DNA of 53,298 nucleotides from Bacteroidota bacterium (GTDB lineage Bacteria > Bacteroidota > Bacteroidia > Bacteroidales > JAIFNL01), in NCBI GenBank assembly GCA_020047755.1, contig JAIFNL010000051.1, positions 1 through 53,298 on the forward strand. The letters run 5' to 3'. Below are positions 742-40,551 of this stretch, piece after piece (the first letter of the stretch is position 1; every line of letters starts with the position of its first letter). A model generated the notes under the pieces. That model did not search any database, was not told the origin of the DNA, and was given only the letters and a program-made list of their open reading frames with translations. The position numbers and the translations under genes are program-made.

Positions 742-3646
742 ATGGAGTCAGTAACTTTTGCGCAAGAATATGATTTTAACGAAACCTCGTTTAAAAATTT
801 GATGCAAAAACGCATCTACAAAGTGTTGATAATCTGTAGCAATTACGATTATTATACCTTAGAAGAAGACGATAGAATAGACGAACAAGTATTTGACGAA
901 TATGTTTCGCTCAACTTGCGCAATCCGCCCATTTTTATTCATGCCAACAGCATCAAAAAGGCTTTTCAGATTCTGCAAGAAGAAGAAATTGACCTGATTA
1001 TCACCATGCTCAGCGTTGGAACTTGTGGTGCTGACAACTTTTTCGCGCGAAGTGTCGATGCGCCTACAAAAAGAAGACCTTTCGGAAATTGATTACGTAT
1101 TTTCGTGGCTTGGAAGTGCCGATATTTTACTTGCCATCATCAAACTGATTGAGGACAAAATGAATGTGGAAGATGATGTGAAACAAGTTGGTGTTCAGGT
1201 AATTCTATTGGTAGAAGATTCCATTCGCTTCTACTCTTCCTATTTGCCCAATGCCTACAAAATAATATTGAAGCAAACTCGCAACTTAATGACCGAAGGG
1301 CTAAACAGTTACCGTGAAATGTTGCGTATGCGAGGTCGCCCAAAAGTACTTTTGGCAACCAATTACAACCAAGCCATAGAACTTTACGAAAAGTACAAAG
1401 ACAGCATGTTGGGAATCATTTCTGACATTCGCTACCGAAGAAACGGAGAAATGGATCCACACGCCGGTTTCCGTTTAGCCAATAGAGTAAAAAAAGACGA
1501 CAGCAATATGCCTTTCCTACTCCAATCGTCGGAAATAGAAAATGAGCTAAAAGCCAAAGAATTAGGAATCGACTTTTTGCACAAGTATTCTAAAAGTTTG
1601 TTGGTCGAATTGCGGAATTATTTATTCAAAAACTTAGCTTTTGGCGATTTTGTTTTTAAAGACCCAAATACTTTTGAAGAAATAGGACGCGCCGCAAACT
1701 TACGCGAATTGCAGCATCAAATTTTAGTAATTCCCGAAAACTCACTGCGTTACCATTTCAATCGCAATAATATTTCGCGCTGGCTCAATGCCCGCGCTAT
1801 TTTCCCTTTGGCTCAGTTATTCAAATACTTAGCAGTCGAAGATTTTAATAGCGTAGAAGATGTGCGCAATTACATTCACAACACCATTGCCAGCTATCGC
1901 CTCAACAAAGGACGTGGAATTATAGCACGTTTCGAGCGCAAAGAATACGACGGTTACCTCACATTTGCACGCATAGGCGAAGGTTCGATGGGAGGAAAAG
2001 CCAGAGGATTAGCCTTTATCGATTCGTTTTTGAAAAGAAATCAATTGAGCCACAAGTACAAAGATGTTTTAATATCAATTCCACGTACCATTGTTATAAC
2101 AACTGATATTTTTGCCAAATTTATGGAAGACAATAAATTATATCCAGTTGTATTGTCCGAACCATTAACCGATAAACAAATATTAGATAAATTTTTAGAA
2201 GGCGCCTTACCTTTAAAAGTACTCCGACAACTAAAAACTTTTTGCAGAGTAGCCAATACTCCTTTAGCAATTCGCTCGTCAAGTCTGCTGGAAGATTCTC
2301 AATACCAACCATTTGCAGGTATTTATTCTACTTATATGATTCCCAACACCAACAATCTGATTCAGATGGTGGAAATGCTCGAAACAGCAATTAAAAGCGT
2401 GTATGCTTCTGTTTATTTCAAAGCAAGCAAAGCTTATATGGACGCTACTTCTAACATTATTGACGAAGAGCAAATGGGAATTATTATTCAAGAAGTATGT
2501 GGAAGTCAATACGATAACTTATTCTATCCAACTATTTCTGGCGTTGCACGCTCTATTAATTTTTACCCAATCGCACCCGAAAAAGCAGAAGATGGAATTG
2601 CAAACGTGGCAATTGGTTTAGGAAAAATAACAGTAGAAGGCGGTCAAACGCTGCGCTTTTCGCCAAAATATCCAAAAAAAATACTTCAACTCTCCTCGCC
2701 GCAAATTACCTTGCGCGATACACAAAAAAAACTGTATGCCCTTGATTTAAACCCCAGTGCATTCAAAGCTTCTACCGACGACGGAGTAAACATCATTAGC
2801 ACCGGAATCAAATCGGCTGAAAACCATTCCTCTATGCGTTTTGTTGCCTCTACCTACGATTACCAAAACAACATGATACGGCACGGCGGCATTTACACCG
2901 GAAAAAAAGTAATTACATTTGCTAACATACTATACCACAATACTTTTCCATTAGCCGAAATCATAGCCGATTTATTAGAAGTAGGACAAAAAGAAATGGG
3001 CTCAGCCATAGAAATAGAATTTGCAGTAAATTTAGACGTTCCCAAAGGACAACCCAGAATATTTAATTTCCTACAAATCAGACCTATTGTACAATCAAAA
3101 GAAGTAGTACATTTGAATTTAAAAGACATAAAAAAAGAAAATTGCATCTTAGTAGCCGAACAAGCTTTAGGAAATGGCGAAATAAAAGGCGTTTGCGATA
3201 TTGTTTATGTAAAACCCCGAAGTTTTAACGCAGCAAAAACAACCGAAATAGCCGACCTTGTTTCTGAAATTAACGACGAATTTGTGGCTAAAAATAAAAA
3301 TTACATACTAATAGGACCTGGAAGATGGGGTTCGAGCGATAAATTTTTAGGTATTCCTGTAAAATGGTCGCAAATTTCAGCAGCTCGTGTAATTGTAGAG
3401 TCAGGTTTAGAAAATTTCAGAATTGACCCAAGCCAAGGCACTCATTTTTTTCAAAACTTAACCTCTTTTGGCGTAGGCTACTTTACAATAAATCCATTTA
3501 TCAACGATGGGTATTATGACATTGATTACCTCCGCGAATTACCGGCAGCCTATGAAAATGAATACATTAGGCATATTCATTTTGAAAAAGAACTAGAAAT
3601 CAAAATAGATGGGAAAAATGGAGTTGGAGTTGTTTTGAAACAATAA
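742..3646 (+). pseudogene. PEP/pyruvate-binding domain protein with receiver-like N-terminus, frameshifted
   Basis: Two overlapping frames encode one protein. The first (742 to about 1022) gives a CheY-like start with strand KVLIICS and ends in DLIITMLSVG. The second (from about 1020 to 3646, about 875 residues) resumes at LVVLTTFSREV. About 20 residues of the receiver-like fold (around helix 3 and strand 4) are missing at the junction and the frame shifts by +1, so this is an internal deletion. The second frame carries the PPDK N-terminal-type ATP-grasp region: GEGSMGGKARGLAFID near its residue 321 and RSSSLLEDSQYQPFAG near 417. A conserved C-terminal part has LIGPGRWGSSDKFLG. The phosphohistidine and PEP-barrel domains of true PEP synthase are absent, as is usual for this Bacteroidetes family, so the reaction is unknown. 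It converges on the DUF2461 gene. The lesion may be real or an assembly error. Confidence 0.85.
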
Positions 3647-4374: not shown

Positions 4375-7300
4375 TTATTTTTTATTTTTCTTTTCAGTAG
4401 AAGCTTTTTTCAATTCGTCCTCTTGCCTTTCAGCTGCTTGATTTAATTTTTTACCCGAAATATTTTTATTTTCCGAAAGAATTTTTTCGGCAGCAAAACG
4501 CGCAGCCGCTAAAGTTTCTCGGTTTACTTTTTCGGTAATTTGTCCTCTATTAATATCTTCTACATTCAAATAACCATTTGTTAAAAGTAATTGCATAACA
4601 ATATTATTTACAATGGTTTCGTGCGAATACCCCTCAGCAATAAACAAAGATTGAGCACTTTCGTAAAACTCATTGGCAAACTCCTTGTTGTTTGGCAAAC
4701 TCATTAATTGACTGTACGTTTCGGTAAAACCACTCAGCTCAATATTAATATTTGGCGTAACCAGAAGCGGAGTAAAAGGCGTATTGTAATCAAATCCCTC
4801 GGCATGAATACCCGAAAGATCAATTTCAACCTCAGCATCATCAAAACGTACTAGCTTGGTATGCTTCATTTTATGAATTTGCCACAAAAAGAAATTATAT
4901 CGCCAAAGTTCATTGCTTGTTTTGTCGTTGCACATCAATTTTCCGTAACTATTGTTAATTAATTGCCTTACCATTTGCCTGTTACGGTTAATTTCGGGGT
5001 TTGAAATCCGAACTTCCTGAATCAGTTTGCGCATATCTTCCGAAGCCTTTTGTGGACCTGAAATTTCTTTCCCTTTCTTGCCAATATCGGTAGATAAAAT
5101 ACCAAATTGAATATTCTGAGCTTTTGAGTTTGCATCACGTCCATTCTTCAAAGCATCGATAAAATATTTGGTAGATTTCAATTGTCCGCTCTCGGCAATA
5201 AATGGTTGTCCGGCAGGAGTGCTAGCAAGCGAATTATAGTTGTTGCTGAATACTTTACGGTCAATTAACATTTCTGCAATATCTTCGCCATTAATACCTT
5301 TAGCAATAAAGCGATTCTTAATTATATCAAAATTGACTTTAGTAATCCGGTATTTAATTTTATTTTCCTCAAAATGCTTGTCAATAAAAATTTTATTCAC
5401 AACTTTCTCTATATCAATCTTATCAATCATTTTGAACGAAGAGCACAAATAATGCAATTTGGTAGTAGAATCTAGCTCCCAACTCAAAATATCGTCAAGA
5501 TAATTACCGTGATTATCAATTATTTCGGTAATATTAGGTTCGGAAGTGTAACGCAACAAAGTACGCAAAAAATTAGGACCGTCTTCGCTCGTCGCTTTTT
5601 CCTTGCGCTCGCCATGCGAATCGCGATACAGAATAAAGTTTTCGGGATTGTCAAAGCGTTGAATACCAGCTTCATTTCGCGAATAATTGTGAGCAGTAAG
5701 CATAATATCAATCTTAAATGGCATCGAAATATCGCACAAACCACTAATCGTAGAGCGAGAATTTAAGTCCTCAACATTGCTATCGGCACTACTTTCAAAA
5801 AGCGAATTGTAATATTTTATATAATCTGGGTCAAAATCCGTAACGCGCGAAAAATCACCAATTTCAGTTCCTATTCCAAACAAATTACCTTCCTTGTCGG
5901 GAAAAATATGAAACATATCGCCAGCAATTAATTTTATACTCCTAATGCCTTTTAAGTTGTTTTTCAGCCATTTCAGCATCATAGCAGCCAGCATTTCCGA
6001 TTTGCCCACGCCACTGTCGCCACTAATTTGAACCACAAAAACACTTCCATCTTCCTCTTCCACAGCATAAAGCGAACCATGAACAGGTATTCCGCCCATT
6101 TCTTTGACCTTTTCGTTAATCATCGACAAGCGAGGTTTTTTCACGTCGCCAAAATAATCCGCTTCAGGTTTCAATGGAGTTACTATTGTTTTGATTTTCT
6201 TATTATTAGGTCCATTCAAGTCAAAATAACCTATTTGTGGAAATGAAATTACCTTTTCGGGTGCTCCCAAAAACAAAACCACATCAGGTTCAAATTTTAT
6301 AGCATCTTCAAGGCTTATTTCATCGGCACCAACCAAGCGAAAATTATCGGTAAGGTACTTTATATAAGACTTTTGCATAATATAAAGCTCTTTAAACAAA
6401 CCACGCTTTGTTATTTTGCAACGATAATCGTTAATGTCCATATTTTGCGAAAACTTAGCCATACGTTTAGCAAAAAAATCGGCTGTTGGACGAGTTTTTA
6501 ATTGCTTAATATATTCATTTTGAGACTGATTACCTTGTTCAAAATAAAAATCTTCGCTTTCGGTTCTATCGGCTCTGTGAAATGGATATTCTCGTTTTTT
6601 TGCATCGGTAGCAATGCGAGTATGCGTCTGAACGGGTTGCTCGGTTGCAATCACGCCACACGAGGTCATTATGTCATTGAGCCATTTCAATGCACCGCCA
6701 TTATGTTCTACCAGATTATTTTTATGTACGAAGTCTTTGTGAATACTGTAACCATGTTGCACCATTTCATTGTAACTCGAGTTTTGTCGAGCAAAATTCG
6801 ACTCTACAATCCGCATCAATGAATGTGTGTAACGTATATAATAATCAGTTCCTTTACTTAAATTTATTGTTTCAATTAAAAACAAAACAACCTTACGCAC
6901 TTCATTGCGAAGCTCTGTTTCTTGAATTTTATATTCTGAAGATGAAATAATCTGATTTACAATTAAATAAAAATCATTCTCCAGATTTGCCGAAATAAAT
7001 GTTTCGGTAATCATTCGAGCCTCTCCTTCTTTTACTGCTAAAGTCTGTTTGTATAAAACTTCAAATCTTTCTATTATTTTTTTGATGAATTGAGAGCTTT
7101 CATTGAAAAGATATAATTTTTTAATCGAATTAATTATATTTTTATCACCAAAAACTTCTTTTTCAAATAGATTTTTCAATTTACCCAGCAAACTACGCGC
7201 AAAAGAAGAATCTTCGAAAATTTTTGCTTTTTGTAAATTATCGAATAAATAATGGGCAAATTTAGCCAAATCCAATTCGCTCAACGGAATATGCAAAATT

Positions 7301-10300
7301 TCGACGAATTTTTCAATAGAATGCTCAAGAAGCTCCGTTTTAGTTGGCATTGCAGCCTCTTTAGCAAATGGCAAATTGAAATGCAGCAACAACTCTTTGA
7401 TGTGCTTGCGCAAAATAGCATTCACGCCCTCAAGTTGTGAGCGGTCGAGCACCACAGTATCGCTCAATTTTTTGAGCTTAGTAGTTGGTGTTGCATTAAG
7501 AGCCAGCATTTTAACCTTTGCATCAGAGAATAAAATCTTTTCCAATTCTATCAAAATTTCCATCATTATCAAACGTTCTTCAGGATTGTCAATAATATAT
7601 GAATTGGGTTGGAAATTAAGTTTATTTTGTATATATTTCAAAATTAGAGTCTTACCATATTTTGAAATAACTGTATTTATATCCAAATTTTTAATAAGAG
7701 GAATGTTTCGATAAATCTGCGGCAATAAATTTTCATAAATTTTTGTAAATGCCTTACTTCTAATAAAATCTGTAACATTTTGGCACTGTCCAATATTTTC
7801 ATAAAACTCAAAAACAGAGTTCTTCGACCGTCCTATTGAATTGATGCTAACTCCGCAATCTTGTGGAAATGAATGATAAAGCGTTTTAATTTTACTTATT
7901 CGCAAGCTATCTAACGTTTCGCGCTGTTGGTTTTTAACAGCGTCAAAATCGCTGACAAGTTTTTGAATGTATTCATTGTCATTTTTATACCTGAAAATTA
8001 ATTTTAAAATTTCAGACGTTGATTTGTCTTTATTTTGCTGTTTTGTTTCTACAAATTCTTTCCAATAGCTTAAAAATAAAGAAAGTGCAGTTTCAAACTC
8101 TTTTTCAAACTCTTGATACGATTTTTTATCTCCTTTTAAATAACCACCCAACGAAAAGCGCACAAAACCAGTTTTGTATGGAATTGCAACAATTCCTCTT
8201 TGTATTGCTAGTTGCGAAACAAAATCTTCTAAGTCAAAAAAAGAAAACAGGTTTTTAATTTGAATATTAAACAAATAAGAACCGTTCGATTCTATAATTT
8301 TAACAATATCTGTATATTTCTCATTAATAACCTTTTCTGCTATTTTTTTAGCAAGAATAAGTCTTTTATTAGCCTCTGTTCTAAAGTTACGATTTACTCT
8401 AAATTTATTCAAAGCCTTCACCAAATAATCCTTGTAATACGAAAAGAATGCTTCGTTTTTGTATTTAAAATCGTCGGGAAGCTCAAGAACGTCGAGTTTA
8501 TCGAGAGAAACCAACTCGTCGAGAAGGAAAATATGCAAAGGGCTGCCCTCAAAAAGCGAAATTCGATTGTATTTGCTCTTTTTCTCACCATTTTGAAGCA
8601 AAGTATTTGCATAAATTTCAGTTTTAATAAACTCTTCTATGCTTTTTTTGATACTCGAACGTGAAGCATTTTTTGGCAATTCTGCTTCCATTTTATCTTT
8701 CACTTTCTTTGCTGTTTGTGCTGATTCTAAAGTATTTACAAGCATAAACAGCGAATTGGTATTTCCCCTGTCGAAGGTGTACTTGTTTTTTATAAAATCA
8801 ATCACATCTTCTCTTACAGGTGAAGCAATGACTGAACCTAAGCGATTTCCGGTTGCACCCAAATTTTTGGTGGTAGAAAGCGACGAAACAATACTAATTT
8901 TGGAGTAAGCATTGAAATTATTGAATATATAACGCGAAATGGAACGCCATTTTGGAGTTTCTGGGTTGTCTATTTTAATTGCATCGCTGTAAGCTTCATC
9001 GAGCAAAAGCGTTATTTTACTGTTACTTATGAATTTCAAAAACTTAATAAGCGACGTGTTGTTAAAATCGCTATAACCCGAAGGATTTGATGGGTCGTTG
9101 ATAATAATAGTCAAGTTAGAACAAAACCTATCCCATAAACTTCCGCTGTGGTCAAAAAGTTGGAAGGTATTTTTTATGCGGCTCAAAATATGCAAAAGTC
9201 TATCAAAATCAATATGTCCATCGGGTTTTATATCCACATTCAAATCGAAAGGATTGATGTCGAAACGGTCAGTTGGGAATAAGTCTTTGTACTCCCACGA
9301 AAGCTGCTCGTTGAACAAAATGTAAGGCATTGGTTCCCAAGCCTCGTGCGAAACTAAGTCGCGAATAATCATTTGCACATCATCGGAAATTGACGTTTTT
9401 TCTAAATTTGCTAAATCGCTAATAAACGCCTTTATAATGTTCTTCTCGCTATCGTTTCGCTCTTGATAAGCTTGAAAAATACCTAAATCAATCAGAAAAT
9501 TTTGAAAACGTCCTTTATTATCGGCTTCATTTTCTTGTTTGGTCAAAAATTCTTTGTATTTCTCTAAAAATAAATTGATTCCAAAATTTTTATGAAAGTG
9601 ATTTTTTAAAGTTCTTTGGTAATTATTGGGAATAATGTCGATAATTGTTCTACAATTCTCAATTACCTTTTTATCAACAGCTTGCAACTTTCTGTGGCGC
9701 AAATAACTTCCATACATACGAATTTGATTACGCCCTCCGCCTTCTACAACTGTAGCAATTTTCACTTCATCGGCATTGGAGTAAAAATATTTTTTTGTGC
9801 GCAGTTCAAATTCATTTATTAATTTAGTATTCAGTTCATTATGAATTTTGGGGTCTTTAATTTTAATTACTAAATCAATAAAATCATGCAATTTGCTCAA
9901 CGTATATTTGTCCTTGATTATTTGTTTTGAAAAGTCATCAAATTTAAAGAGCACAATATCTTTGTCTGGATTATTAATTTCGCCAATTTGCTCTATTTTA
10001 AGCTCGTTCAGTTCTTCTTCGTAATCTTTTATTTTTGCTGCTGTTGCATTTCTAAATATAATAAGATTTTCGGTATTTACCTTGTCGAAAATAAGTCGTA
10101 AATTGGTTTGCGTGTTTGCTAGTGCACCTAATTTTTTTGTGTGTATTTTGTTTAAGGCATTGATAATTCCGTTGTGAAAACAAAAAACTAATGAGGTATT
10201 TGTACTCCTAGATTCGTCGGAGTCGTCAATAAATACCAAACGACTCAAAACGTTGTACCAACGAAAGCTATTGAACACATTTTTGCGCATATTGCGTAGT

Positions 10301-11109
10301 TTTACAGCAAATACACTCGTAAAATCATTGCTTACTTCTTCAAAAAGGCTTTCTTCTTCAGTAAACTCAATAACTTTTACATCGTTGGCATTAAAAACCT
10401 CACCTTTAATAAGTTCGATAGCAGTTTGCGCAGTTCCTGAAACTAAGGTTCTGATAAAACCATTCAGTCCTTTGAAGTTGATAGTCGATTCTGTTCTATC
10501 TAAAAAATTATCTTTTTCGGCTTTGGTTGTATAATGTGTACTTTGAATAACCATTTGATCCAAAACATCCATAAAATAGTTCCATTGAGCCTCTTCTATG
10601 TCGCCATTGATGCCAATAACATCTCTAAATTTGCGCAACTCGGTAACTTTATCGCCCAAAATATTTTTGAACATATAATCCACATCTTCTTGAGTAACAG
10701 GCGGAGTACCAATTGAATAGTCGTGCAGATTCAAAATATTATTGAGTTGCTTTTTGGTTGGTTCGTCAACCAATTCATTGTCTTGCAAAAAATGAATTTT
10801 CTCCTTAAACAAATTTCGTTTTGCACTAAAAGCAAATGCCTTAGAACTTTCGTGCGGATAAATCATTAACGAAATATCGGCATAAGAAGGAATTGCTTCT
10901 TTTAACTCAAGAATAGCCTTATCTATTTCAGCTTGCTGTTTTGCGGGGCCAATCGGTTCATCGAAGCAAATTTTCACAAAATTAGCAAGTTTATCAACTA
11001 CATTGTTGGGTAAAAAGTTTTCGGCTCTTTCGCCTAATGACTTGTATAGGTCAATAAAATCGAGCGCATCGCTTCGTAAAAATGCTTTTGGTTTGCCATT
11101 TATTTGCAT
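4375..11109 (-). CDS. Giant protein with PLP aminotransferase-like and HPrK/PEPCK-like kinase domains
   Basis: One uninterrupted 2244-codon frame. Residues 1 to about 480 are not recognised. A fold-type I PLP region follows, with the cofactor residues in canonical order and spacing: N675 in NDPSNPSG, D704 and Y707 in DEAY, K748 and R756 in STTKNLGATGNRLG, and a C-terminal R984 in GFVRFSLGG, so it looks catalytically competent. About 650 mostly helical residues follow. Then comes a P-loop kinase domain with Walker A GDSGVGKSE (G1697, K1703), the form typical of HPr kinase, followed by IAGDMFHIFPDKEGNLFGIG and NSRSTISG, which recall the PEP carboxykinase fold. The C-terminus is lysine-rich. No signal peptide or membrane span is seen. 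I know of no characterised protein with this architecture; domain calls come from motifs only. It leads an operon with DUF2461. Confidence 0.75.
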   Translation of the reverse strand: MQINGKPKAFLRSDALDFIDLYKSLGERAENFLPNNVVDKLANFVKICFDEPIGPAKQQAEIDKAILELKEAIPSYADISLMIYPHESSKAFAFSAKRNLFKEKIHFLQDNELVDEPTKKQLNNILNLHDYSIGTPPVTQEDVDYMFKNILGDKVTELRKFRDVIGINGDIEEAQWNYFMDVLDQMVIQSTHYTTKAEKDNFLDRTESTINFKGLNGFIRTLVSGTAQTAIELIKGEVFNANDVKVIEFTEEESLFEEVSNDFTSVFAVKLRNMRKNVFNSFRWYNVLSRLVFIDDSDESRSTNTSLVFCFHNGIINALNKIHTKKLGALANTQTNLRLIFDKVNTENLIIFRNATAAKIKDYEEELNELKIEQIGEINNPDKDIVLFKFDDFSKQIIKDKYTLSKLHDFIDLVIKIKDPKIHNELNTKLINEFELRTKKYFYSNADEVKIATVVEGGGRNQIRMYGSYLRHRKLQAVDKKVIENCRTIIDIIPNNYQRTLKNHFHKNFGINLFLEKYKEFLTKQENEADNKGRFQNFLIDLGIFQAYQERNDSEKNIIKAFISDLANLEKTSISDDVQMIIRDLVSHEAWEPMPYILFNEQLSWEYKDLFPTDRFDINPFDLNVDIKPDGHIDFDRLLHILSRIKNTFQLFDHSGSLWDRFCSNLTIIINDPSNPSGYSDFNNTSLIKFLKFISNSKITLLLDEAYSDAIKIDNPETPKWRSISRYIFNNFNAYSKISIVSSLSTTKNLGATGNRLGSVIASPVREDVIDFIKNKYTFDRGNTNSLFMLVNTLESAQTAKKVKDKMEAELPKNASRSSIKKSIEEFIKTEIYANTLLQNGEKKSKYNRISLFEGSPLHIFLLDELVSLDKLDVLELPDDFKYKNEAFFSYYKDYLVKALNKFRVNRNFRTEANKRLILAKKIAEKVINEKYTDIVKIIESNGSYLFNIQIKNLFSFFDLEDFVSQLAIQRGIVAIPYKTGFVRFSLGGYLKGDKKSYQEFEKEFETALSLFLSYWKEFVETKQQNKDKSTSEILKLIFRYKNDNEYIQKLVSDFDAVKNQQRETLDSLRISKIKTLYHSFPQDCGVSINSIGRSKNSVFEFYENIGQCQNVTDFIRSKAFTKIYENLLPQIYRNIPLIKNLDINTVISKYGKTLILKYIQNKLNFQPNSYIIDNPEERLIMMEILIELEKILFSDAKVKMLALNATPTTKLKKLSDTVVLDRSQLEGVNAILRKHIKELLLHFNLPFAKEAAMPTKTELLEHSIEKFVEILHIPLSELDLAKFAHYLFDNLQKAKIFEDSSFARSLLGKLKNLFEKEVFGDKNIINSIKKLYLFNESSQFIKKIIERFEVLYKQTLAVKEGEARMITETFISANLENDFYLIVNQIISSSEYKIQETELRNEVRKVVLFLIETINLSKGTDYYIRYTHSLMRIVESNFARQNSSYNEMVQHGYSIHKDFVHKNNLVEHNGGALKWLNDIMTSCGVIATEQPVQTHTRIATDAKKREYPFHRADRTESEDFYFEQGNQSQNEYIKQLKTRPTADFFAKRMAKFSQNMDINDYRCKITKRGLFKELYIMQKSYIKYLTDNFRLVGADEISLEDAIKFEPDVVLFLGAPEKVISFPQIGYFDLNGPNNKKIKTIVTPLKPEADYFGDVKKPRLSMINEKVKEMGGIPVHGSLYAVEEEDGSVFVVQISGDSGVGKSEMLAAMMLKWLKNNLKGIRSIKLIAGDMFHIFPDKEGNLFGIGTEIGDFSRVTDFDPDYIKYYNSLFESSADSNVEDLNSRSTISGLCDISMPFKIDIMLTAHNYSRNEAGIQRFDNPENFILYRDSHGERKEKATSEDGPNFLRTLLRYTSEPNITEIIDNHGNYLDDILSWELDSTTKLHYLCSSFKMIDKIDIEKVVNKIFIDKHFEENKIKYRITKVNFDIIKNRFIAKGINGEDIAEMLIDRKVFSNNYNSLASTPAGQPFIAESGQLKSTKYFIDALKNGRDANSKAQNIQFGILSTDIGKKGKEISGPQKASEDMRKLIQEVRISNPEINRNRQMVRQLINNSYGKLMCNDKTSNELWRYNFFLWQIHKMKHTKLVRFDDAEVEIDLSGIHAEGFDYNTPFTPLLVTPNINIELSGFTETYSQLMSLPNNKEFANEFYESAQSLFIAEGYSHETIVNNIVMQLLLTNGYLNVEDINRGQITEKVNRETLAAARFAAEKILSENKNISGKKLNQAAERQEDELKKASTEKKNKK

Positions 11110-16957: not shown

Positions 16958-19900
16958 TTAATCTATTTTCTTAATTTCGGGTTTAACTTTTTTAGTTTTA
17001 AAGGAAGTAATTTTAATTTTTTTAAAGAAATTATATTTCTTCAGTTTATCTTGTATTTTTATCCCCTCTAATAAATCTAATGTTTTTTTCAATACATTGT
17101 AATACAGCGTAACATAAAACAGTAACGTTATTATCCAAATAAGTATTGTATTAAACCAAAAAGTTTCGTAATAGTTGCCCAGAAAATGTTTTCGTGGAGC
17201 AAAAAATTGAGTTCTAAAATCAAGAGCATGATTGGGCTCAGGATCTAAGTAGATAGGATCTATTTGCTGTATAAGCTTTCCGTCGTATTCTATAATCGGA
17301 TTTTTTTCATAAATCTTTTTCACTATCTCTTGAAGCGATTCATTATGATACTTCTTACGCCTATTATCATAATAGCCTGGCTTTTTCTCTTTCAAATAAT
17401 CAATCATTCGCTCTTTCTTTTCCGATCCCTCTTTGTAAAAGAAATTATAATACGAATCTAGCTCTTTTTTTACGTAAAACCTAGCTTCCTCAATAATACT
17501 ATCGGTAACATTTTCTAAATTCAATTTGTCGATGTGCTTGAATTTCAACTCAACCCTATCGCTCTTTTTTGCAATGTATTGTTGCTCTAATACACTTATT
17601 TTTTTTGCTTCACGTATAAACTCTTTTTTCAATAAATTTAGCTTCTTATCCAAAGCTTCGCGTGCCGAGTCGTTTTTTGAAGCCAAATCTACTTCTATGT
17701 CTTCTTTTACCTCATCTATAATCGTCTCTAAGTAAGGTATATAATGCGCCAATTTAAAGTCGGCTATACTTATTTTCTTTTCTATTTCGTAATAAGTTCG
17801 TTCAAACTTGTTATCTTTATATTGTTTCACCATTAAGGCTTCATAACCCCAGCGTGCAGTCATCACTTCGGCTACTATTGGCACCTTTTCTATGCTACTA
17901 ATTGTTTTGTTCAATTTTTCAAAACTAAACATCGCACCACCCAAAGCCAATTGAGGAATTATTAGCAAAGGTATTAAAATATAGATAGTTACAGCAGAGT
18001 TAAAAGTAGAAGAAATATTCAAACCCATCATATTGGCACCCGCCGAAATAGAAAACAAAATAAGCCAATATTCAAAATACATTTCTTCCACACCCAATAT
18101 CGTATTGCCTACCAAAACAAACAACAAGGCTTGTACTGCTGAAAGCCCAAAAAGGATAATCACTTTTGAAATCAAATAGCTCGAACGGCTTAAATTCAAA
18201 AATGCTTCACGTTTTAATATTTTTCTATCCTTAAAAATTTCTTCTGCACTAACAGTAAGCCCAATAAACAAAGCAACTACCACACTCATAAATATATAAG
18301 GCGGTATATTCACATTTTCTCTAAAAACATAAACCTCCGAATTAGGGTCGGCAATATACCTTATAATATACGAAAGGATAAAACCTAGCAATGGAGATTC
18401 TATCAAATTGATTGCAATATACTGCTTGTTGCTAATTTTTGAAAGCCAATCACGCTTCAAATATATTTTCAACTGCTTGAACCACGTTGGGATATCAAGA
18501 GTACTAACGGGCTTTTCCTTAACTATTTCAACAGGTTCGAGTGAAATTTTTTGGTGGAAATGATCTTCCCAATGCTTAGGACTAACCTTTCGGCTATCCG
18601 TATAATTACCAAATTCATCTACTACTTTTGCCTCTACAATATCAAAAATAGATTCAGGGTTTACATTACCGCAAACAGGACATTCGCCTGATACATTATT
18701 TATTTGATTATCAATTTCTTTGAAATACAAAATTGCCTCAACAGGGTTTCCATAGTAAACCATATAACCACCCGTATCGAGAATCATCATTTTGTCGAAC
18801 ATTTTATAAATCTCCGACGATGGCTGATGAATTACTACAAAAATAAGCTTACCTTTTAGGGTTAGCTCTCTGAGTAAGTCCATTACATTTTCCGAGTCGC
18901 GCGAAGACAAGCCTGAAGTTGGTTCATCGACAAACAAAATGGCGGGTTCTCTAATGAGTTCAAGTGCTATATTTAGTCTTTTGCGCTGTCCACCACTAAT
19001 AAGCTTATTCAAGGGCGAGCCTACTTTTAAATCTTTTCTTTCAAAAAGACCCAAATTTTTCAAAACCGTATTAACCAACTGGATTATCTCCTGCTCTGGC
19101 TTTTTGTTGAAGCACTGCTTAGCATTGAAATACAAATTTTCAAAAACAGTCAATTCTTCTATCAAAAGGTCATCTTGAGGAATGTAACCTATCAAACCTT
19201 CTATCTCTTCTTTATTATGATGAAGATCTATCCCATTAATCAAAACGCGCCCTGACGTAGGAGTAGAAATACCTGATAATGAGTTTAGCATAGTTGTTTT
19301 TCCAGCACCGCTAGCTCCCATTATCCCAATCAATTTACCATGTGTTTCGGAGAACGAAATATTTCGCAAACCCAAATCACCATTCGGAAATTGAAATGAA
19401 ATACTTTCTACCGAAAAAGAAAGCTTTGCAATGATTGAATCCGATAAAAACTTTGCAACTACATCACTATAATAAATTGGTTTTCCTTTAGGAATTCTAA
19501 TAGTGCTACCATTGGCAAATAGATAAATACTTTTATTATTTATTATCTGTCCGTTTAAGTTAACCGCTTCTGCACCTGTGTATTTTAGGAAAAATAACTC
19601 AACCGCTTTTATGTGTAAAATAAAAATATTTCCGTTGAGCGATTCTGTATGTACTTTTTTACAATGCTCCGATTCAATATTTACTTCACTTACAATCAAA
19701 ATATTTGTAAAATCGACCTTGCTCGGTTCATTTTCGATAACAAAAGTCTCAATACTTACAAACTCTTCTTTCGTAATATTAAATACCTCAGCTACTGTGT
19801 TGATGATAGCCATTCGTTGTTCCGAAAATTTCCTTTCGGTATTTATTAACTCAAATAAACGAGTTAATACAACAACTTTTTGTTTTTGGTTAAGATTTTT

Positions 19901-20179
19901 ATTTATTTTTTTGCACAATCCCAGAATTCGCACAGAGTCTTTTACCGAAGTACGCTTTGGTTTTTTATCCTCTTCCGATTCTGTTTCTAAAAGTTTACCT
20001 TCTGCATTTAAACCAGCTTTTTCATAAAACAAATTCAAGTACTCAGTAACAGCCTCGTCGCCCAATTGTTGCGTCAAGAATGTTTTAACATACTTAATCT
20101 CATTTTGTTCAACTCCTTCATCTTGTTTTACAATTATAGCAAATAATTGCATCAAGGCTTTTAATATCTCTTCACTCAT
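16958..20179 (-). CDS. ABC-2 type exporter: fused ATPase and permease with TerB-like N-terminus
   Basis: The 1073-residue product has, in order: a TerB-like helical N-terminus (ALMQLFAIIVKQDEGVEQNE), a degenerate FHA-like stretch around residues 180-250, an ABCG-type ATPase, a linker with CPVCGNVNPE near residue 500, and an ABC-2 permease with about six spans plus a coiled-coil insert before the last span. The ATPase has Walker A GASGAGKTT (about 293), signature SGGQRKRLN (about 396), Walker B FVDEPTSGLSS and H-loop IHQPSSE. It is therefore a membrane half-transporter that probably dimerises; the substrate is unknown. A paralogue with the same architecture is at 37447-40551, which also supports this start. 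It lies 134 nt after siaC, with two palindromes between, and before three exported-protein genes. Confidence 0.9.
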   Translation of the reverse strand: MSEEILKALMQLFAIIVKQDEGVEQNEIKYVKTFLTQQLGDEAVTEYLNLFYEKAGLNAEGKLLETESEEDKKPKRTSVKDSVRILGLCKKINKNLNQKQKVVVLTRLFELINTERKFSEQRMAIINTVAEVFNITKEEFVSIETFVIENEPSKVDFTNILIVSEVNIESEHCKKVHTESLNGNIFILHIKAVELFFLKYTGAEAVNLNGQIINNKSIYLFANGSTIRIPKGKPIYYSDVVAKFLSDSIIAKLSFSVESISFQFPNGDLGLRNISFSETHGKLIGIMGASGAGKTTMLNSLSGISTPTSGRVLINGIDLHHNKEEIEGLIGYIPQDDLLIEELTVFENLYFNAKQCFNKKPEQEIIQLVNTVLKNLGLFERKDLKVGSPLNKLISGGQRKRLNIALELIREPAILFVDEPTSGLSSRDSENVMDLLRELTLKGKLIFVVIHQPSSEIYKMFDKMMILDTGGYMVYYGNPVEAILYFKEIDNQINNVSGECPVCGNVNPESIFDIVEAKVVDEFGNYTDSRKVSPKHWEDHFHQKISLEPVEIVKEKPVSTLDIPTWFKQLKIYLKRDWLSKISNKQYIAINLIESPLLGFILSYIIRYIADPNSEVYVFRENVNIPPYIFMSVVVALFIGLTVSAEEIFKDRKILKREAFLNLSRSSYLISKVIILFGLSAVQALLFVLVGNTILGVEEMYFEYWLILFSISAGANMMGLNISSTFNSAVTIYILIPLLIIPQLALGGAMFSFEKLNKTISSIEKVPIVAEVMTARWGYEALMVKQYKDNKFERTYYEIEKKISIADFKLAHYIPYLETIIDEVKEDIEVDLASKNDSAREALDKKLNLLKKEFIREAKKISVLEQQYIAKKSDRVELKFKHIDKLNLENVTDSIIEEARFYVKKELDSYYNFFYKEGSEKKERMIDYLKEKKPGYYDNRRKKYHNESLQEIVKKIYEKNPIIEYDGKLIQQIDPIYLDPEPNHALDFRTQFFAPRKHFLGNYYETFWFNTILIWIITLLFYVTLYYNVLKKTLDLLEGIKIQDKLKKYNFFKKIKITSFKTKKVKPEIKKID

Positions 20180-20313: not shown

Positions 20314-20697
20314 TTAGTCCAAACTATAGCTGATTTGTTCAAATGGAACATCTACAATGTCTGCATACTCTTCGCCTGCTTCTTCCATATCTTCATCATC
20401 ATCTGGATAATGCCATCTTACCAATACCTCATTACCTTCGTCAGACAAGTCTTCGAGTTTAAGTAGTATATCGAGCAATAATTTTGATGAAGCAGTATTA
20501 AAATACACAAGTTTAAAATCCAGTATCGTCTTTTCGTTTGGACTTTGGGCATATTCATCGAGCCATTCTAAAACGGGTTCGTAGAAAGAAGCCACATCTT
20601 CAGGCAAAGACCTTCCGGATATTTCCATTATATTATTTTCAGCATCTAGTATTATAGTGGGCGTATCGTCTGAGCCTTTAATTTTTATTACTTGCAT
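20314..20697 (-). CDS. siaC: SiaC family regulatory phosphoprotein (DUF1987)
   Basis: The 127-residue product fits the SiaC/DUF1987 family: a short N-terminal region GSDDTPTIILDAENN, then ISGRSLPEDV, and the core ILDFKLVYFNTASSKLLLDIL. In Pseudomonas aeruginosa SiaC, Thr68 is phosphorylated by SiaB and dephosphorylated by SiaA; here a Thr at position 68 lies in the equivalent YFNTASS segment. In that system unphosphorylated SiaC activates a diguanylate cyclase (SiaD). No GGDEF gene is present in this window, so the target here must differ or lie elsewhere. The gene follows siaB after 15 nt. Confidence 0.93.
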   Translation of the reverse strand: MQVIKIKGSDDTPTIILDAENNIMEISGRSLPEDVASFYEPVLEWLDEYAQSPNEKTILDFKLVYFNTASSKLLLDILLKLEDLSDEGNEVLVRWHYPDDDEDMEEAGEEYADIVDVPFEQISYSLD

Positions 20698-20712
20698 AAT
20701 TATGTTTGTTTT

Positions 20713-21288
20713 TTATTTTCGTGAAATACTTGATGTTAATACAAAAAATGATTCATCTTTGTCTACTGTAAGGAAATGATACTCTAATGGGCGTCCAGTC
20801 TTTTTTGCAATATCTATAAAACCTAAACCCGCACCGCCTTTTTCAGAAAGCCTACCTTCCCGAATTTGCTGTTTATAAAGCTTTTTCAAGCCTTCTTTGT
20901 CTAAGTTATTGATATTCTCAAGCATATAACGCAATCCATCAATTTTCTCCGTAGGAATTGTATTGCCCGTTGTTACCAAATATTCCGATTCTCCTTTGCT
21001 AATCATGAAAATACCCTTGCCTTCTTTTTCGGCGCTGGCAGTTTCTGGTTGGCTGGCGTGTTTACTTATGTTTTGCAAACATTCTACCATTACATGGAAA
21101 ACCTTTTTTTGTACAGTGTTGGGTTCTTCCTCTCGAAGCATTTTTGACTCTGTAAGCGACGTAAATGCTTTAGTTATTTGATGAGTTATTTCCCCTTCGT
21201 AAACTAAATTTACGTCCTTCGATTTCATCTTTAGATAAAAATCATATACAAAATCAAGGAAGTTGTGCCTATTAACAATCTCTGCCAT
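20713..21288 (-). CDS. siaB: SiaB family protein kinase
   Basis: The 191-residue product fits the SiaB family (DUF6272), a GHKL-fold protein kinase. The N-box is VECLQNISKHA and the G-rich ATP-lid region is GGAGLGFIDIAKKTGRPLEY, as in family members. By analogy with Pseudomonas it phosphorylates SiaC on a threonine in the cytoplasm and is opposed by a SpoIIE-type phosphatase. It lies between the phosphatase gene (126 nt upstream) and siaC (15 nt downstream), which gives the phosphatase-kinase-substrate order of a partner-switching module. Confidence 0.92.
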   Translation of the reverse strand: MAEIVNRHNFLDFVYDFYLKMKSKDVNLVYEGEITHQITKAFTSLTESKMLREEEPNTVQKKVFHVMVECLQNISKHASQPETASAEKEGKGIFMISKGESEYLVTTGNTIPTEKIDGLRYMLENINNLDKEGLKKLYKQQIREGRLSEKGGAGLGFIDIAKKTGRPLEYHFLTVDKDESFFVLTSSISRK

Positions 21289-21414
21289 AATTTAGTTTTT
21301 GGGTTATGAGTAAAATCATAATGTGCTTATTAAAATAATTTTCAAATTTCTTAAATAAAATTGAATTTACCAATTTTTTTCTTAAAATCGATTCCAAAGA
21401 TACAAATATTTTTT

Positions 21415-24045
21415 TTAAAATTCAACTCCTATCATTAAAACATCGTCAATTTGTTTATAATTTCCTTGCCATTTCCTGAAATCTTTCGAAAAATGTTTCA
21501 TATACTGCGGCATTGAAAAATCCAAATTGCTTAATATCTCATCGCGTATTCTTACTACTTGATATTTTCTTCCCTTGTCGCCGCCAATTTGGTCGGGTAA
21601 TCCATCTGAGAAAAAGAATATTTTATCCGATTTTTGATATTTTATCACATGGTTTATAAATGGTTTTTCGTCTTTTTTGTTGTTCGGAATACCACCAATA
21701 GCCTTCGGGCTTCCTCTATATTGCGCTAATTCACCATCTCTAAGCAAATAAAGTGGACGATGAGCACCTGAATACTGCAACTCATTTCGCGTTCTATTTA
21801 TTTTACACAGCGCAATATCCATACCATCACGTGCATTAGCACCTTCTTGATCTTGCTTGAGCGTTGTGCGAACCTCTTCATGCAATTTATCTAGCACTTC
21901 TCCTGCAGTAAATTCTTTATCGTGATCCACAATATTGTTGAGCAAAAAATAACCAATAAACGACAAGAGTGCTCCCGGAACGCCATGTCCAGTACAATCT
22001 ACCGCTGCAATGTAAATATCATCGCCTCGTTTAAAGAACCAAGGAAAATCACCACTTACAACATCTCTTGGTTTGTAAAGAATAAACGAATTTGGCAAAT
22101 ACTCATGAATTAGCTTATTGTCTGGCAATATTGCTTTTTGGATACGCTGAGCATAATTTATACTATCGTTTATCTTTTTGTTTTTATCTATAATTTCGGC
22201 TTCTATTTTTTTCTGTTCCGTAATGTCATGTGCTACAAGCAAAACCGTTTCTAAATCCCCATCTTCGCTAAACTCAGGAATAGCATTTAATTGCATAAAC
22301 CGATGCCCCAAGTTCGATTCAAATTCAAATTCAGTCTCTGTCTTTTCGGGCTTGAAAGCTATTTTTTCAATAATTGTTTTGAAAACTCTCGAAATTGTTG
22401 CCTCCAAACCTACTTCTTCTAATGTACGTCTAATTAAATTTGACTTTTTCACACCCGTATATTCCTCCACTTGAGGGTTCACATAAAAGAACCTTCCTTC
22501 GAGGTTTATCCGAATAATCATATCAATACTATTTTCCGAAAGTGCCTGCATTTGACCACTCATTCGCTGAGCTTTTTCTGCAATTTTACGTACAGTTATA
22601 TCGCGAGTATTAAAAATAATTCCGGCAATAGCTGAATTGTTCAAAAAATTGCGCCCCGTTGATTCTAACCAAAGCGTTTCCTCGTCGTTTTTAGTATATT
22701 GATATTCAAAGGTTCGAGGAGCCTCTGGATTTTCCAGCAACTCAAAGAATATTCTTTTTGTAATATTGTTTTCCGACGTGTGAACCGTTTCAAAAGCACT
22801 TTTGCCTATAATTTCTTCAGGCGCATAACCCAAAATATTTTTTACCGAAGGGCTTTCGTACTTCACAAGCCCATTCTCATCATAAATAGAAATAACTTCA
22901 GAAGCATTTTCGAGCAACGAATGTAACCGCTTTTGCGAATTTTCTACTTCCTTTATTTGCTTTTCAAGGTTTATGTTGGTTTTTTGAAGCTCTTCCTGAG
23001 TTGCACGCATTTCTTCTGCGTTTTGCCTCAATTCTTCTTCATTTTCTTTTAACTCTTCAGTCATTATTCTAGCTTCTTTCAAAAGCTTTTCGGTCTTCGC
23101 ATTCACTTTCAAGTTAAAAACCGTTTGCGCAATGATAGTAGCTAACTCTCTCACAAACTTTATGGTAAGCTCAGGAAAATCCTCCTCAAGCGAAGCAAAC
23201 TCAACAATACCCTGCAATTTTTCATTGCTTATTAAAGGTACAATTAATATCGTTTGTGGTTTTTTATCACCCAAAATACCTGAAGTTATGGTTACATAAT
23301 CTTTCGGTATTTCCTTTCTATAAATATAATCCATTTCATAAGCACACTGACCTATAAGCCCTTGACCTATTTTAAACTCTTGGCTTATGTATTTTTTCCG
23401 ATTGTAGGCATAAGTTGCAATATTGATAATTCTATCGGTATCGTCATCGTAAATATAAAAGGCACCTTGAACAGCTTTCGTGTAATCTATGAGATTTACA
23501 GTTGTTTCGTAGGCTAAAGTATCTATATTGTTGTGCAAACGCAAGATATTGGAAATATGTTCTTTCCCTTTTGCTATCCAATTTTGCTCATTTTCTTTAT
23601 TCTCGGTAAGCTCTAGGTTCGTTTTCATGCGCAAAAGCGCTTTTCCTAGCTCATCATCTTCATCTATTTCGTCAAATTTTCGCGAAAAATCTTTTTTTCC
23701 GATTAAATTCGCAAAATTTGCATTTTTCTGAATCTTATTATTTAACTCCTCTACATCATATTTCAATTCTTTATTAACTCGTTCCGATGAAGTAGAAAGC
23801 AAATAAACGATTGCTGCTATTACAAAAGGGATTAAGTCAATTAGAAAATTCTGCATATTTTCTATATGAAATAGATAAATATCGTTTAAGGTTAGGTCGT
23901 AATTTTTAGTTAAAACTTCTAATGTCCATGATATTAATGGAAATATCAATCCCAATGCAAAGCCAAGTAAAGTTTGGCGTTTTACATAGTTCGATATCCA
24001 AAAGGAGCTCTTAATATCGGAATAGTATTTATATTTTTTTGCCAT
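21415..24045 (-). CDS. SiaA-like SpoIIE/PP2C phosphatase with GAF and PAS domains
   Basis: The 876-residue product begins with two membrane spans (about residues 25-45 and 65-85), then a linker helix, a GAF domain (about 170-320, GQGLIGQCAYE), a Glu-rich coiled coil (about 325-380), two PAS domains (about 380-490 and 500-620) and a C-terminal SpoIIE/PP2C phosphatase. The phosphatase keeps the metal-binding motifs: SGDFPWFF (about 668), DCTGHGVPGALL (about 685), DGMDIAL (about 741), FFSDGLPDQIGG (about 811) and DDVLMIGV. It is an inner-membrane sensor that should dephosphorylate the SiaC protein encoded downstream. Unlike Pseudomonas SiaA, which has HAMP input, this one senses through GAF and PAS domains. 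A promoter candidate lies at 24269-24301. Confidence 0.92.
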   Translation of the reverse strand: MAKKYKYYSDIKSSFWISNYVKRQTLLGFALGLIFPLISWTLEVLTKNYDLTLNDIYLFHIENMQNFLIDLIPFVIAAIVYLLSTSSERVNKELKYDVEELNNKIQKNANFANLIGKKDFSRKFDEIDEDDELGKALLRMKTNLELTENKENEQNWIAKGKEHISNILRLHNNIDTLAYETTVNLIDYTKAVQGAFYIYDDDTDRIINIATYAYNRKKYISQEFKIGQGLIGQCAYEMDYIYRKEIPKDYVTITSGILGDKKPQTILIVPLISNEKLQGIVEFASLEEDFPELTIKFVRELATIIAQTVFNLKVNAKTEKLLKEARIMTEELKENEEELRQNAEEMRATQEELQKTNINLEKQIKEVENSQKRLHSLLENASEVISIYDENGLVKYESPSVKNILGYAPEEIIGKSAFETVHTSENNITKRIFFELLENPEAPRTFEYQYTKNDEETLWLESTGRNFLNNSAIAGIIFNTRDITVRKIAEKAQRMSGQMQALSENSIDMIIRINLEGRFFYVNPQVEEYTGVKKSNLIRRTLEEVGLEATISRVFKTIIEKIAFKPEKTETEFEFESNLGHRFMQLNAIPEFSEDGDLETVLLVAHDITEQKKIEAEIIDKNKKINDSINYAQRIQKAILPDNKLIHEYLPNSFILYKPRDVVSGDFPWFFKRGDDIYIAAVDCTGHGVPGALLSFIGYFLLNNIVDHDKEFTAGEVLDKLHEEVRTTLKQDQEGANARDGMDIALCKINRTRNELQYSGAHRPLYLLRDGELAQYRGSPKAIGGIPNNKKDEKPFINHVIKYQKSDKIFFFSDGLPDQIGGDKGRKYQVVRIRDEILSNLDFSMPQYMKHFSKDFRKWQGNYKQIDDVLMIGVEF

Positions 24046-24988: not shown

Positions 24989-26086
24989 ATGGAAATAATT
25001 AAAAGTGGTGCCCGTTTTTCGTCAATTGTAGATATCGGTATTCGATTGAAACAAAAATCAATCGAAACAAATTCTCTATTTTTGGCTGCTCACCGAGGAA
25101 TCAATGCCGTTACTACTATCGATTTGTCGCAAGTAATTAAGCGTATTGACTTTAACTCGCCCGAAATTCAAAATTACCCGCCCATCGAAGGGTTTGGGTA
25201 TTTAAAAAAAGCAATTAATCAATATTACTTTGAAAATCAAGCAAATAATGAAAATATTTTTGCAACTATTGGCAGCGCTTTATCGTTAGATTTGGTTTTT
25301 TCTATTTTAGATATCAATGAAGTTTTGTTACCCGAGTTTTATTGGGGTGCTTATGTTAACATCTTGAAAATAAATAAAAAAGAATTTTCAACCTACCCCG
25401 ATTTTGATTTCTTAATACAAAATGCTAAATATTTACAAAAAAAAGCAATTATAATCTGCGAACCCAACAATCCACTAGGCTCTTCCGAAACCGATGATGC
25501 TATTTTTCAAGTAATTGAAGTTTTAAATAAAAAAGGAATTACCGTAATTCTCGATAGCCCATATCGACGAGTTTTTAAATCCGATACTCGTTTTTACACG
25601 CAAATGCTTAATTTTAAAAATGTAATAATTCTCGAAAGTTTTAGTAAATGCTTGGGATTGAGTGGACAACGTATTGGCTTTCTGCATTGTTCCGATGCTG
25701 AATTTAATCAAGAATTTAGAATTAGACTTTTGTACGCTACCAATGGAGTAAATGCTTTTGCCCAGAAACTTATTTTTGAATTACTGACTTCGGTGGAAGG
25801 AAAAAAAGCCGTTAATGACTTTTTAGAAATTACAAATAAAGGAATTATTCGGAATATTGATTTTTTGCATCACAAAAAACTTTTGCCTGATATTTTTTAT
25901 GCCAAATCAAAACCTGTGGGGATTTTTGCCGTTGTAAATAAATCGCAAGAATTTTTGTTTCAAAACAACATTGGTGCCGTAAATTTAAGTTTCTTCAGCA
26001 AAGACAAAGAAAAATACCAACAATTTTCGCGCGTTTGTGTTTCACTCAAACCTGATGAGTTTGAACATTTTTTTAGTAAATTATAA
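24989..26086 (+). CDS. PLP-dependent aminotransferase, class I/II
   Basis: The 365-residue product has the full fold-type I aminotransferase signature at textbook spacing: N161 in EPNNPLG, D189 and Y192 in LDSPYRR, K220 (Schiff-base lysine) and R228 in SFSKCLGLSGQRIG. It is somewhat shorter than the usual 390 residues. The substrate cannot be told; the sequence is not close to a named AspC or HisC that I recognise. It is a single-gene unit: a long AT-rich region lies upstream and a strong bidirectional terminator (26092-26133) follows 5 nt after the stop. Confidence 0.88.
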   Translation: MEIIKSGARFSSIVDIGIRLKQKSIETNSLFLAAHRGINAVTTIDLSQVIKRIDFNSPEIQNYPPIEGFGYLKKAINQYYFENQANNENIFATIGSALSLDLVFSILDINEVLLPEFYWGAYVNILKINKKEFSTYPDFDFLIQNAKYLQKKAIIICEPNNPLGSSETDDAIFQVIEVLNKKGITVILDSPYRRVFKSDTRFYTQMLNFKNVIILESFSKCLGLSGQRIGFLHCSDAEFNQEFRIRLLYATNGVNAFAQKLIFELLTSVEGKKAVNDFLEITNKGIIRNIDFLHHKKLLPDIFYAKSKPVGIFAVVNKSQEFLFQNNIGAVNLSFFSKDKEKYQQFSRVCVSLKPDEFEHFFSKL

Positions 26087-40400: not shown

Positions 40401-40551
40401 GCTAGGAAGTAAAACCATTGACACACTGTGGTTTAATGTTGCTGCAATTTGGGCTATGATTTTTATAGCTTATAATACTTTGCTAATGGATTTGATTAGA
40501 GTTGTACTTACTTATTTTGAAGATTTACGTTTGCGTTGGCAAGAAAAATAG
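37447..40551 (+). CDS. ABC-2 type exporter, paralogue with TerB-like N-terminus
   Basis: The 1034-residue product has the same domain order as the protein at 16958-20179: TerB-like N-terminus (ESILKAIIQLFAIISNVDENG), degenerate FHA-like stretch (about 200-265), ABCG-type ATPase with Walker A GGSGVGKST (about 300), signature SGGQRKRLN (about 405), Walker B FVDEPTSGLSS and IHQPSSD, a linker with CPTCGNINPE (about 511), then an ABC-2 permease with a charged helical insert before the last span. Identity is high across the ATPase. Substrate unknown. The comEC gene starts 15 nt after its stop, so the two are co-transcribed. Confidence 0.9.
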   Translation: MSESILKAIIQLFAIISNVDENGVSKKARSIVDSVLKPVLSYAKYQEYIKLFESYVVDFHNIVPSAPASDVSVKASSSVRTLRICNEVNKSLNRREKFHVLIKLLEFIDEDDHITESEIDFVETVSQTFNISDEEFNNLKYLYSNEIQKIKNKSNILLINNEDDSQEKGGAWFAKNEPESFSKYRKIYRPKLVGSIWVLYVPSIKSFAFKYSGYMRLELNNRRIVSESIFFLEPGAIIKGGDIIPIYFSDIVASFLSSKNSTKLVFNGENLEFNFKGSRNGIKNFSFSEESGNLIGIMGGSGVGKSTLFNLLNGSIKPKKGTLTINGYNIHSQSKKIEGIIGYVPQDDLLIEELTVFENLYYSAKLCFGNFPEKKIINLVNRILVDLGLFEIKHLTIGSPLKKYISGGQRKRLNIALELIREPSILFVDEPTSGLSSSDSETVMFLLKEQVQKGKLVVVNIHQPSSDIFKLFDKLWILDKGGRLIYNGNPIDAISYFKRMSEHLNPDENICPTCGNINPEQILNIIEARVVDEYGKYLPERKISPEQWYNKYKENIESKLEIKKTESKIPKNHFKIPDLDKQFWIYSLRNLISKFTNKQYLLITFLEAPLLAFVLSYLTKFYNSDGYAFSENKNFPSYLLMSVIVALFLGLIISAEEIIRDRKILKREEFLNLSRFSYINSKILYLFLLSAVQTLTFVLVGNYFFELKGMWWQFWLILFSTSAFANIVGLNISSGLNSVVNIYILIPFILVPQILLSGVIVSFDDLNPNFTDRVNVPIIGDMVASRWAFEALAVEEFKNNKYEKYFYKYEKAHSDASFRNAYLIPNLESRLDENLKLKNDTASIEKVEKNFQILKNEIKKLWEFGNDIPFGSIKLLNSKQFTEEVAQETKDYLQYMKFQYSKVSEQANAEKDRVIKNMIDTLGTEGLLKLKQENHNKRLADYLLNAYDLTKIYEIDGELIQKKDPIFMYPTSKIGRAHFYSPVKMLGSKTIDTLWFNVAAIWAMIFIAYNTLLMDLIRVVLTYFEDLRLRWQEK

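Follow-up and report, generated by a model that had tools for sequence, protein, structure and literature searches.

Introduction

The described enzymes closest to the protein here analysed are the fold-type I (class I/II) aminotransferases, among them aspartate, aromatic and kynurenine aminotransferase II, the ATP- and GTP-dependent phosphoenolpyruvate carboxykinases (PEPCKs), and HPr kinase/phosphorylase (HPrK). HPrK is built without the N-terminal domain of PEPCK, and phosphorylation of an enolate, the chemistry of the PEPCK kind, requires no general base. The gene under study lies on the minus strand, at positions 4375-11109, of contig JAIFNL010000051.1 of a Bacteroidota bacterium (assembly GCA_020047755.1), the whole analysed stretch of 53,298 nucleotides being referred to as the window. 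It encodes a single chain of 2244 residues, hereafter the giant, in which a pyridoxal phosphate (PLP) half with a predicted aminotransferase fold is followed by a kinase half with a predicted PEPCK fold. The giant is a real, conserved and so far undescribed fusion of known enzyme kinds, each half being a divergent offshoot of an established superfamily.

Results

Reading Frame and Fold of the PLP Half

The 2244 residues are read without interruption, as the original prediction, made from the letters alone, had claimed; on the plus strand the same positions hold no open frame, with stops throughout. Upon searching the complete protein against Pfam, the only family matched was Aminotran_1_2 (residues 607-802, E 2e-9, 37.4 bits for a cut-off of 19.7), with no kinase family found, Hpr_kinase_C unmatched and no PEPCK match at E ≤ 1.

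AlphaFold2 models were built on 38 sequences. That of residues 1-1060 is confident, with a predicted local distance difference test (pLDDT) of 84.4 and a predicted template modelling score (pTM) of 0.84. Foldseek returned for it 327 matches in the PDB at E ≤ 0.001, with E values down to 1e-6, the rows listed being PLP enzymes, and VIA aligned 368 of its residues with 1wst in the range 83-1020 (Z 15.6, root-mean-square deviation (rmsd) 3.3). Residues ~83-1020 are, as modelled, a fold-type I aminotransferase fold, whose VIA alignment begins at 83-128. Profile comparison with eleven PLP-enzyme sequences from the same genome aligned the core from about residue 570 (E 2e-9), so that the aminotransferase would be composed of an N-terminal arm (near residues 83-150), carrying a G134-x-P136-P137 motif, a long insertion, and the core. 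No significant match resulted when residues 80-320 were profile-aligned to ordinary aminotransferases, and both boundaries of the insertion are hence only approximate.

Aminotran_1_2 (PF00155) is matched by all 38 homologues, and the residues N675, D704, Y707, K748, R756 and R984 are identical in 86/86. Apart from Aminotran_1_2, the families that the PLP half matched best were GntC, tyrosine transaminase and CobD, and ACC synthase appears among the solved structures nearest to it in sequence. A second class I/II aminotransferase, of ordinary size and also matching PF00155, is encoded in the window at 24989-26086 (+).

Fold and Motifs of the Kinase Half

The model of residues 1050-2215 is of fair quality (pLDDT 76.5, pTM 0.66), and its best 50 rows from both Foldseek and VIA are all PEPCKs (Foldseek E 4.5e-6). 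VIA aligned 389 residues with 9e33 (Z 12.6, rmsd 4.3), model positions 407-987 corresponding to residues 1456-2036. On this modelling, residues ~1456-2036 form a complete two-domain PEPCK fold, going beyond a bare P-loop kinase.

Motifs were aligned with two ATP-PEPCKs, one GTP-PEPCK and relatives of ~577 residues. This alignment pairs YFGxVKK (1652-1658) with the Y-x-G-x-x-KK of PEPCK and H1677 with its metal-binding His; GDSGVGKSE occupies the place of the P-loop, G1730-D1731 that of the DD pair, and N1783-x-R1785 that of N-T-R / N-S-R. Y1652, G1654, K1657, K1658, H1677, S1699, K1703, S1704, D1731, N1783 and R1785 align with residues that belong to the substrate site, metal site or P-loop of PEPCK, and are all invariant. 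A separate profile comparison with PEPCK (E 3e-4) likewise matched up KK, H, D and the P-loop. None of the 86 aligned homologues departs from K1657, K1658, H1677, D1731, R1785 or R1498 where it covers them, and the positions checked in GDSGVGKSE (1697-1705) do not vary among the 85 that include them. By this alignment K1658, H1677 and D1731 would correspond to the metal ligands of PEPCK, a role known from PEPCK structures, and would form a putative metal site; Y1652, K1657, N1783 and R1785 appear to be counterparts of its substrate residues. That R1498 corresponds to R87, the substrate arginine of PEPCK, is a guess from position alone.

The first Asp of the PEPCK DD pair is replaced in the giant by an invariant Gly (G1730). 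The corresponding Asp of HPrK is presumably the general base acting on the hydroxyl, so that its replacement constitutes a weak argument against phosphorylation of a hydroxyl group. Weak family matches were displayed by a few of the 38 homologues, three of them to PF01293 (best E 0.037) and seven to Hpr_kinase_C (best E 0.0019).

Structure prediction, fold comparison and conservation thus uphold the proposed fusion of a PLP fold of type I with a P-loop kinase; the six PLP-half residues and the Walker A motif are where they had been predicted, and the announced PEPCK-like downstream motifs are present as PEPCK-type lysines, histidine, Asp and N-x-R. Boundaries and labels needed correction. The PLP fold, initially placed at 480-1090, starts near 83-128, ends near 1020 and contains the insertion; the P-loop kinase, placed at 1600-1990, belongs to a fold that spans about 1456-2036 with the N-terminal PEPCK domain included; and the designation as HPrK-type suits the P-loop sequence but not the fold, which is that of a two-domain PEPCK. 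Coordinates are collected in Table 1.

Table 1. Features of the giant and their positions in the window.
Feature	Residues	Window positions	Strand	Basis
Whole gene	2244 in all	4375..11109	-	Single open frame, ATG start
Predicted fold-type I aminotransferase fold, interrupted by insertion	83-1020	8050..10863	-	AlphaFold2, Foldseek, VIA
Insertion, mostly helical with a small alpha/beta part	about 150-560	9430..10662	-	Approximate edges
PLP-binding core: N675, D704, Y707, S745-T746-T747-K748, R756	675-756	8842..9087	-	Invariant
Putative alpha-carboxylate arginine R984, counterpart of aspartate aminotransferase R386	984	8158..8160	-	Invariant, 86/86
Linker, mostly helical; most variable at about 1260-1400	1060-1455	6745..7932	-	Conservation, AlphaFold2
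Predicted PEPCK fold, N- and C-terminal domains	1456-2036	5002..6744	-	AlphaFold2, Foldseek, VIA
Walker A motif GDSGVGKSE	1697-1705	5995..6021	-	Sequence, conservation, alignment
Insertion after lid motif HGERKEKATS	about 1844-1960	5230..5580	-	Alignment; absent from PEPCK and 577-aa family
C-terminal helical region; tail variable after ~2204	2037-2244	4378..5001	-	Conservation, AlphaFold2

Homologues and Distribution

At least 86 homologues were found, largely full-length, about 51-92% identical, with the same order of parts. Most belong to Bacteroidota (Marinilabiliaceae, Rikenellaceae with Alistipes, Odoribacter, Ancylomarina), and the architecture is conserved among them, a point on which the original prediction had called for a homology search. 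A few giant-bearing metagenome-assembled genomes (MAGs) are labelled Calditrichota, Ignavibacteriota or Chlorobiota, the two Calditrichota MAGs being placed apart from each other in the homologue tree. Scanning a species-level genome collection gave 120 encoded relatives, 80 of which, mostly full length, were kept; the combination of some 2200 residues has been kept whole in roughly a hundred species or more, gut Alistipes included. Distribution is sporadic, with seven full-length giants, the window's own included, among 99 related genomes of the order, and two others among 395 sampled in the phylum. No full-length match to the giant was present in either the plasmid or the phage collection.

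The frame is single except in three contigs, which show a break between about residues 411 and 464 (L077), a break near residues 111-134 (L050), and two stops beyond the main frame (L004). The PLP and kinase halves were never seen separated in any long-form homologue. No stand-alone PLP half was found by a scan that used only peptide patterns at ~503-518 and would miss such forms.

The sequences nearest to the kinase half are stand-alone proteins of about 570 residues that make up an unassigned PEPCK-like family, present in some Bacteroidales (L008, L009, L011, L012). One relative of 569 residues, AYP99509.1, is carried by a plasmid of Limosilactobacillus fermentum (L141:4314-6023) and annotated as phosphoenolpyruvate carboxykinase; members of this family match PEPCK families weakly, below the model cut-offs, and are nonetheless sometimes annotated as PEPCK. 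Over 190-290 residues they are about 27-36% identical to the kinase half, and they share with it GDSGxGKSE, KK, H and N-x-R, but they have no PLP half, keep the DD pair and are devoid of the insertion of ~110 residues. Their P-loop reads GDSGAGKSE. The giant and the 577-residue protein do not co-occur in 20 giant genomes, which is not meaningful as mutual exclusion, both being rare (7 and 3 of 99).

Gene Context and Canonical PEPCK

Across loci, the neighbourhood of the giant shows neither a generally conserved partner gene nor a conserved operon. A convergent RidA gene comes directly downstream, within about 40-450 bases, in two clades separate from one another, an arrangement seen at 8 of the 70 loci with enough downstream sequence (L016, L021, L091, L092; L051, L064, L083, L084). 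The RidA product, similar to enamine/imine deaminases, clears enamine intermediates, and the adjacency possibly reflects a functional link to PLP chemistry.

Canonical ATP-PEPCK accompanies the giant in 18 of 20 giant genomes. Neither ATP- nor GTP-PEPCK was found in the window's own genome (G000, 98% complete), and ATP-PEPCK was not found in a sister genome (G002, 82% complete). In a third genome of the same genus (G001), PEPCK adjoins a three-gene block (open reading frames at 8184-9842 of L142) that is also present in G000 and G002 (L151, L152), there flanked by other genes. The sole match to PF00391, a family of phosphoenolpyruvate (PEP) utilisers, in G000 falls within a frame of 583 residues, too short for pyruvate phosphate dikinase. 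Positions 1016-3646 (+) of the window encode a protein of 876 residues in which 324-707 are a PPDK_N ATP-binding domain and the only other match is a weak one to DUF5752; it does not match PF00391 at E ≤ 1. This gene adjoins the giant in G000 and G002, not in G001.

Discussion

Proposed Function

Both sets of active-site residues are retained, as read from the aligned sequences, and the halves are predicted by the models to adopt PLP and PEPCK folds. Because both sites are strictly conserved and always occur together in the long form, the giant is best read as one enzyme with two catalytic halves sharing a metabolite; the residues of the kinase half that correspond to 2-oxo-acid ligands, together with the alpha-carboxylate arginine of the PLP half, make a shared 2-oxo acid the natural link. 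We thus propose, tentatively and at somewhat less than even chances, a single-chain bifunctional metabolic enzyme with both halves acting on one 2-oxo acid. The PLP half (83-1020) would convert an alpha-amino acid to the matching 2-oxo acid and back, and the PEPCK-like half (1456-2036) would take that same 2-oxo acid to an enol phosphate, or the enol phosphate back to it, in a nucleotide- and divalent-metal-dependent decarboxylation-phosphorylation or its reversal. In the simplest instance, aspartate, oxaloacetate and PEP plus CO2 would be interconverted, with oxaloacetate handed between the halves. Substrates, direction and transfer between sites, as well as transamination by the PLP half rather than elimination or decarboxylation, are inferred. 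A more specific version, in which the giant would link PEP and CO2 to an amino acid such as aspartate in anaerobic Bacteroidota, in two steps with the 2-oxo acid unreleased, and would replace canonical PEPCK in the window's lineage, is doubtful. If the halves do act in sequence, the giant would tie amino-acid metabolism to that of PEP in a new way, and would be an example, rare in nature, of an aminotransferase joined with a carboxykinase-like domain.

The missing canonical ATP-PEPCK of G000 and G002, where the block that adjoins PEPCK in G001 has other neighbours, counts toward the bifunctional enzyme, as does the invariant G1730, since enolate phosphorylation requires no general base. Several points weigh against it: (i) the similarity of the kinase half to PEPCK in sequence is weak, neither PEPCK Pfam model (PF01293 / PF00821) reaches its cut-off, and the model of this half is the less confident one; (ii) ACC synthase, GntC and CobD, which are not transaminases, are among the proteins closest in sequence to the PLP half; (iii) the side-chain carboxylate arginine R292 of classical aspartate aminotransferase has no apparent conserved counterpart at the expected spacing, residues ~781-782, a position placed by spacing only, being variable; (iv) no conserved operon surrounds the gene; and (v) canonical ATP-PEPCK mostly coexists with the giant, so that a PEPCK-type reaction would be redundant in those genomes unless its substrate differs.

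Alternative Explanations

The main rival reverses the order of the steps. Here a hydroxy amino acid, or a small molecule akin to one, would first be phosphorylated by the kinase half; the resulting phospho-amino acid would then lose its phosphate by elimination, be decarboxylated or be rearranged at the PLP half, by chemistry like that of CobD, ACC synthase or GntC. Those family and structural matches of the PLP half speak for it, as does the convergent RidA gene of two clades; the invariant Gly1730 in place of the presumed HPrK-type general-base Asp speaks against it, together with the retention of the PEPCK-type 2-oxo-acid residues K1657, Y1652, N1783 and R1785 and the fact that most loci are without RidA adjacency. 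On balance, it is unlikely.

Somewhat less probable still is that the giant is a direct substitute for canonical PEPCK, serving these bacteria as their PEP-forming carboxykinase. The PEPCK-less G000 and G002 agree with it, as does the finding that the block adjoining PEPCK in G001 has other neighbours in these two genomes. Nonetheless, the incompleteness of G002 weakens the case, and the coexistence of both enzymes elsewhere makes replacement of PEPCK unlikely as a general role.

A protein kinase of the HPrK type, controlled by a PLP half that senses an amino acid or PLP, finds some agreement in its HPrK-like P-loop and in the weak Hpr_kinase_C matches, but it has to contend with an N-terminal PEPCK domain that is part of the fold, catalytic PLP residues conserved beyond the needs of a sensor, and no conserved neighbouring gene that could be its target; we consider it improbable. 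Of the two suggestions in the original prediction, two linked reactions are favoured over a sensor-controlled kinase, given the active-site residues retained in the sequence.

Fusion of two genes by sequencing or assembly error, a negligible prospect for which no support was found, is rejected because homologues keep the same order of parts, the same single frame recurring in >80 other, independent genomes or contigs, several isolates and the complete chromosome (L046) of Alistipes sp. dk3624 among them, which contradicts a join of separate genes.

Other Features of the Window

Two related ABC ATPase-permeases with the same N-terminal extension are encoded 17 kb apart in opposite orientation (16958-20179, minus strand; 37447-40551, plus strand). 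Adjacent genes at 20314-24045 (-) encode, by appearance, a GAF/PAS protein with a phosphatase-like C-terminus, a protein with a histidine-kinase-like ATPase and a small protein, and are possibly a partner-switching set. A protein of 1364 residues (42729-46823, minus strand) resembles, on reading its sequence, a secreted cysteine peptidase with a C-terminal sorting domain. No known RNA elements were found within the window.

Comparison with Known Systems

Neither Pfam and NCBIfam nor the open-access papers searched yielded an example of the aminotransferase-PEPCK-like architecture, what these papers offered on channelling being general reviews. The earlier statement that the giant has no known counterpart thus stands for described proteins in these sources, but not for encoded ones, given the relatives, about 120, in species-level genomes.

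Relative to HPr kinase/phosphorylase, the giant is alike in its GDSGVGKSE P-loop and the preceding His-Gly, and unlike in having the N-terminal domain and substrate residues of PEPCK and in being apparently without the general-base Asp. With ATP- and GTP-PEPCK it shares both domains of the predicted fold, the aligned KK, His and Asp of the putative metal site, N-x-R and the P-loop, whereas the HPrK-like form of that P-loop, Gly for the first Asp of the DD pair, the post-lid insertion of ~110 residues and scores below both Pfam cut-offs set it apart. Compared with ordinary fold-type I aminotransferases of ~400 residues, its aminotransferase extends over about 940 owing to the long insertion, with 9-17% identity in structural alignments, and it carries a fused PEPCK-like domain; a conserved counterpart of the aspartate side-chain Arg292 is apparently lacking at the expected spacing. 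Nonetheless, it has the same predicted fold and, alike with them, the PLP Lys, the Asp, Asn and Tyr, the phosphate-binding Ser/Arg and the alpha-carboxylate Arg.

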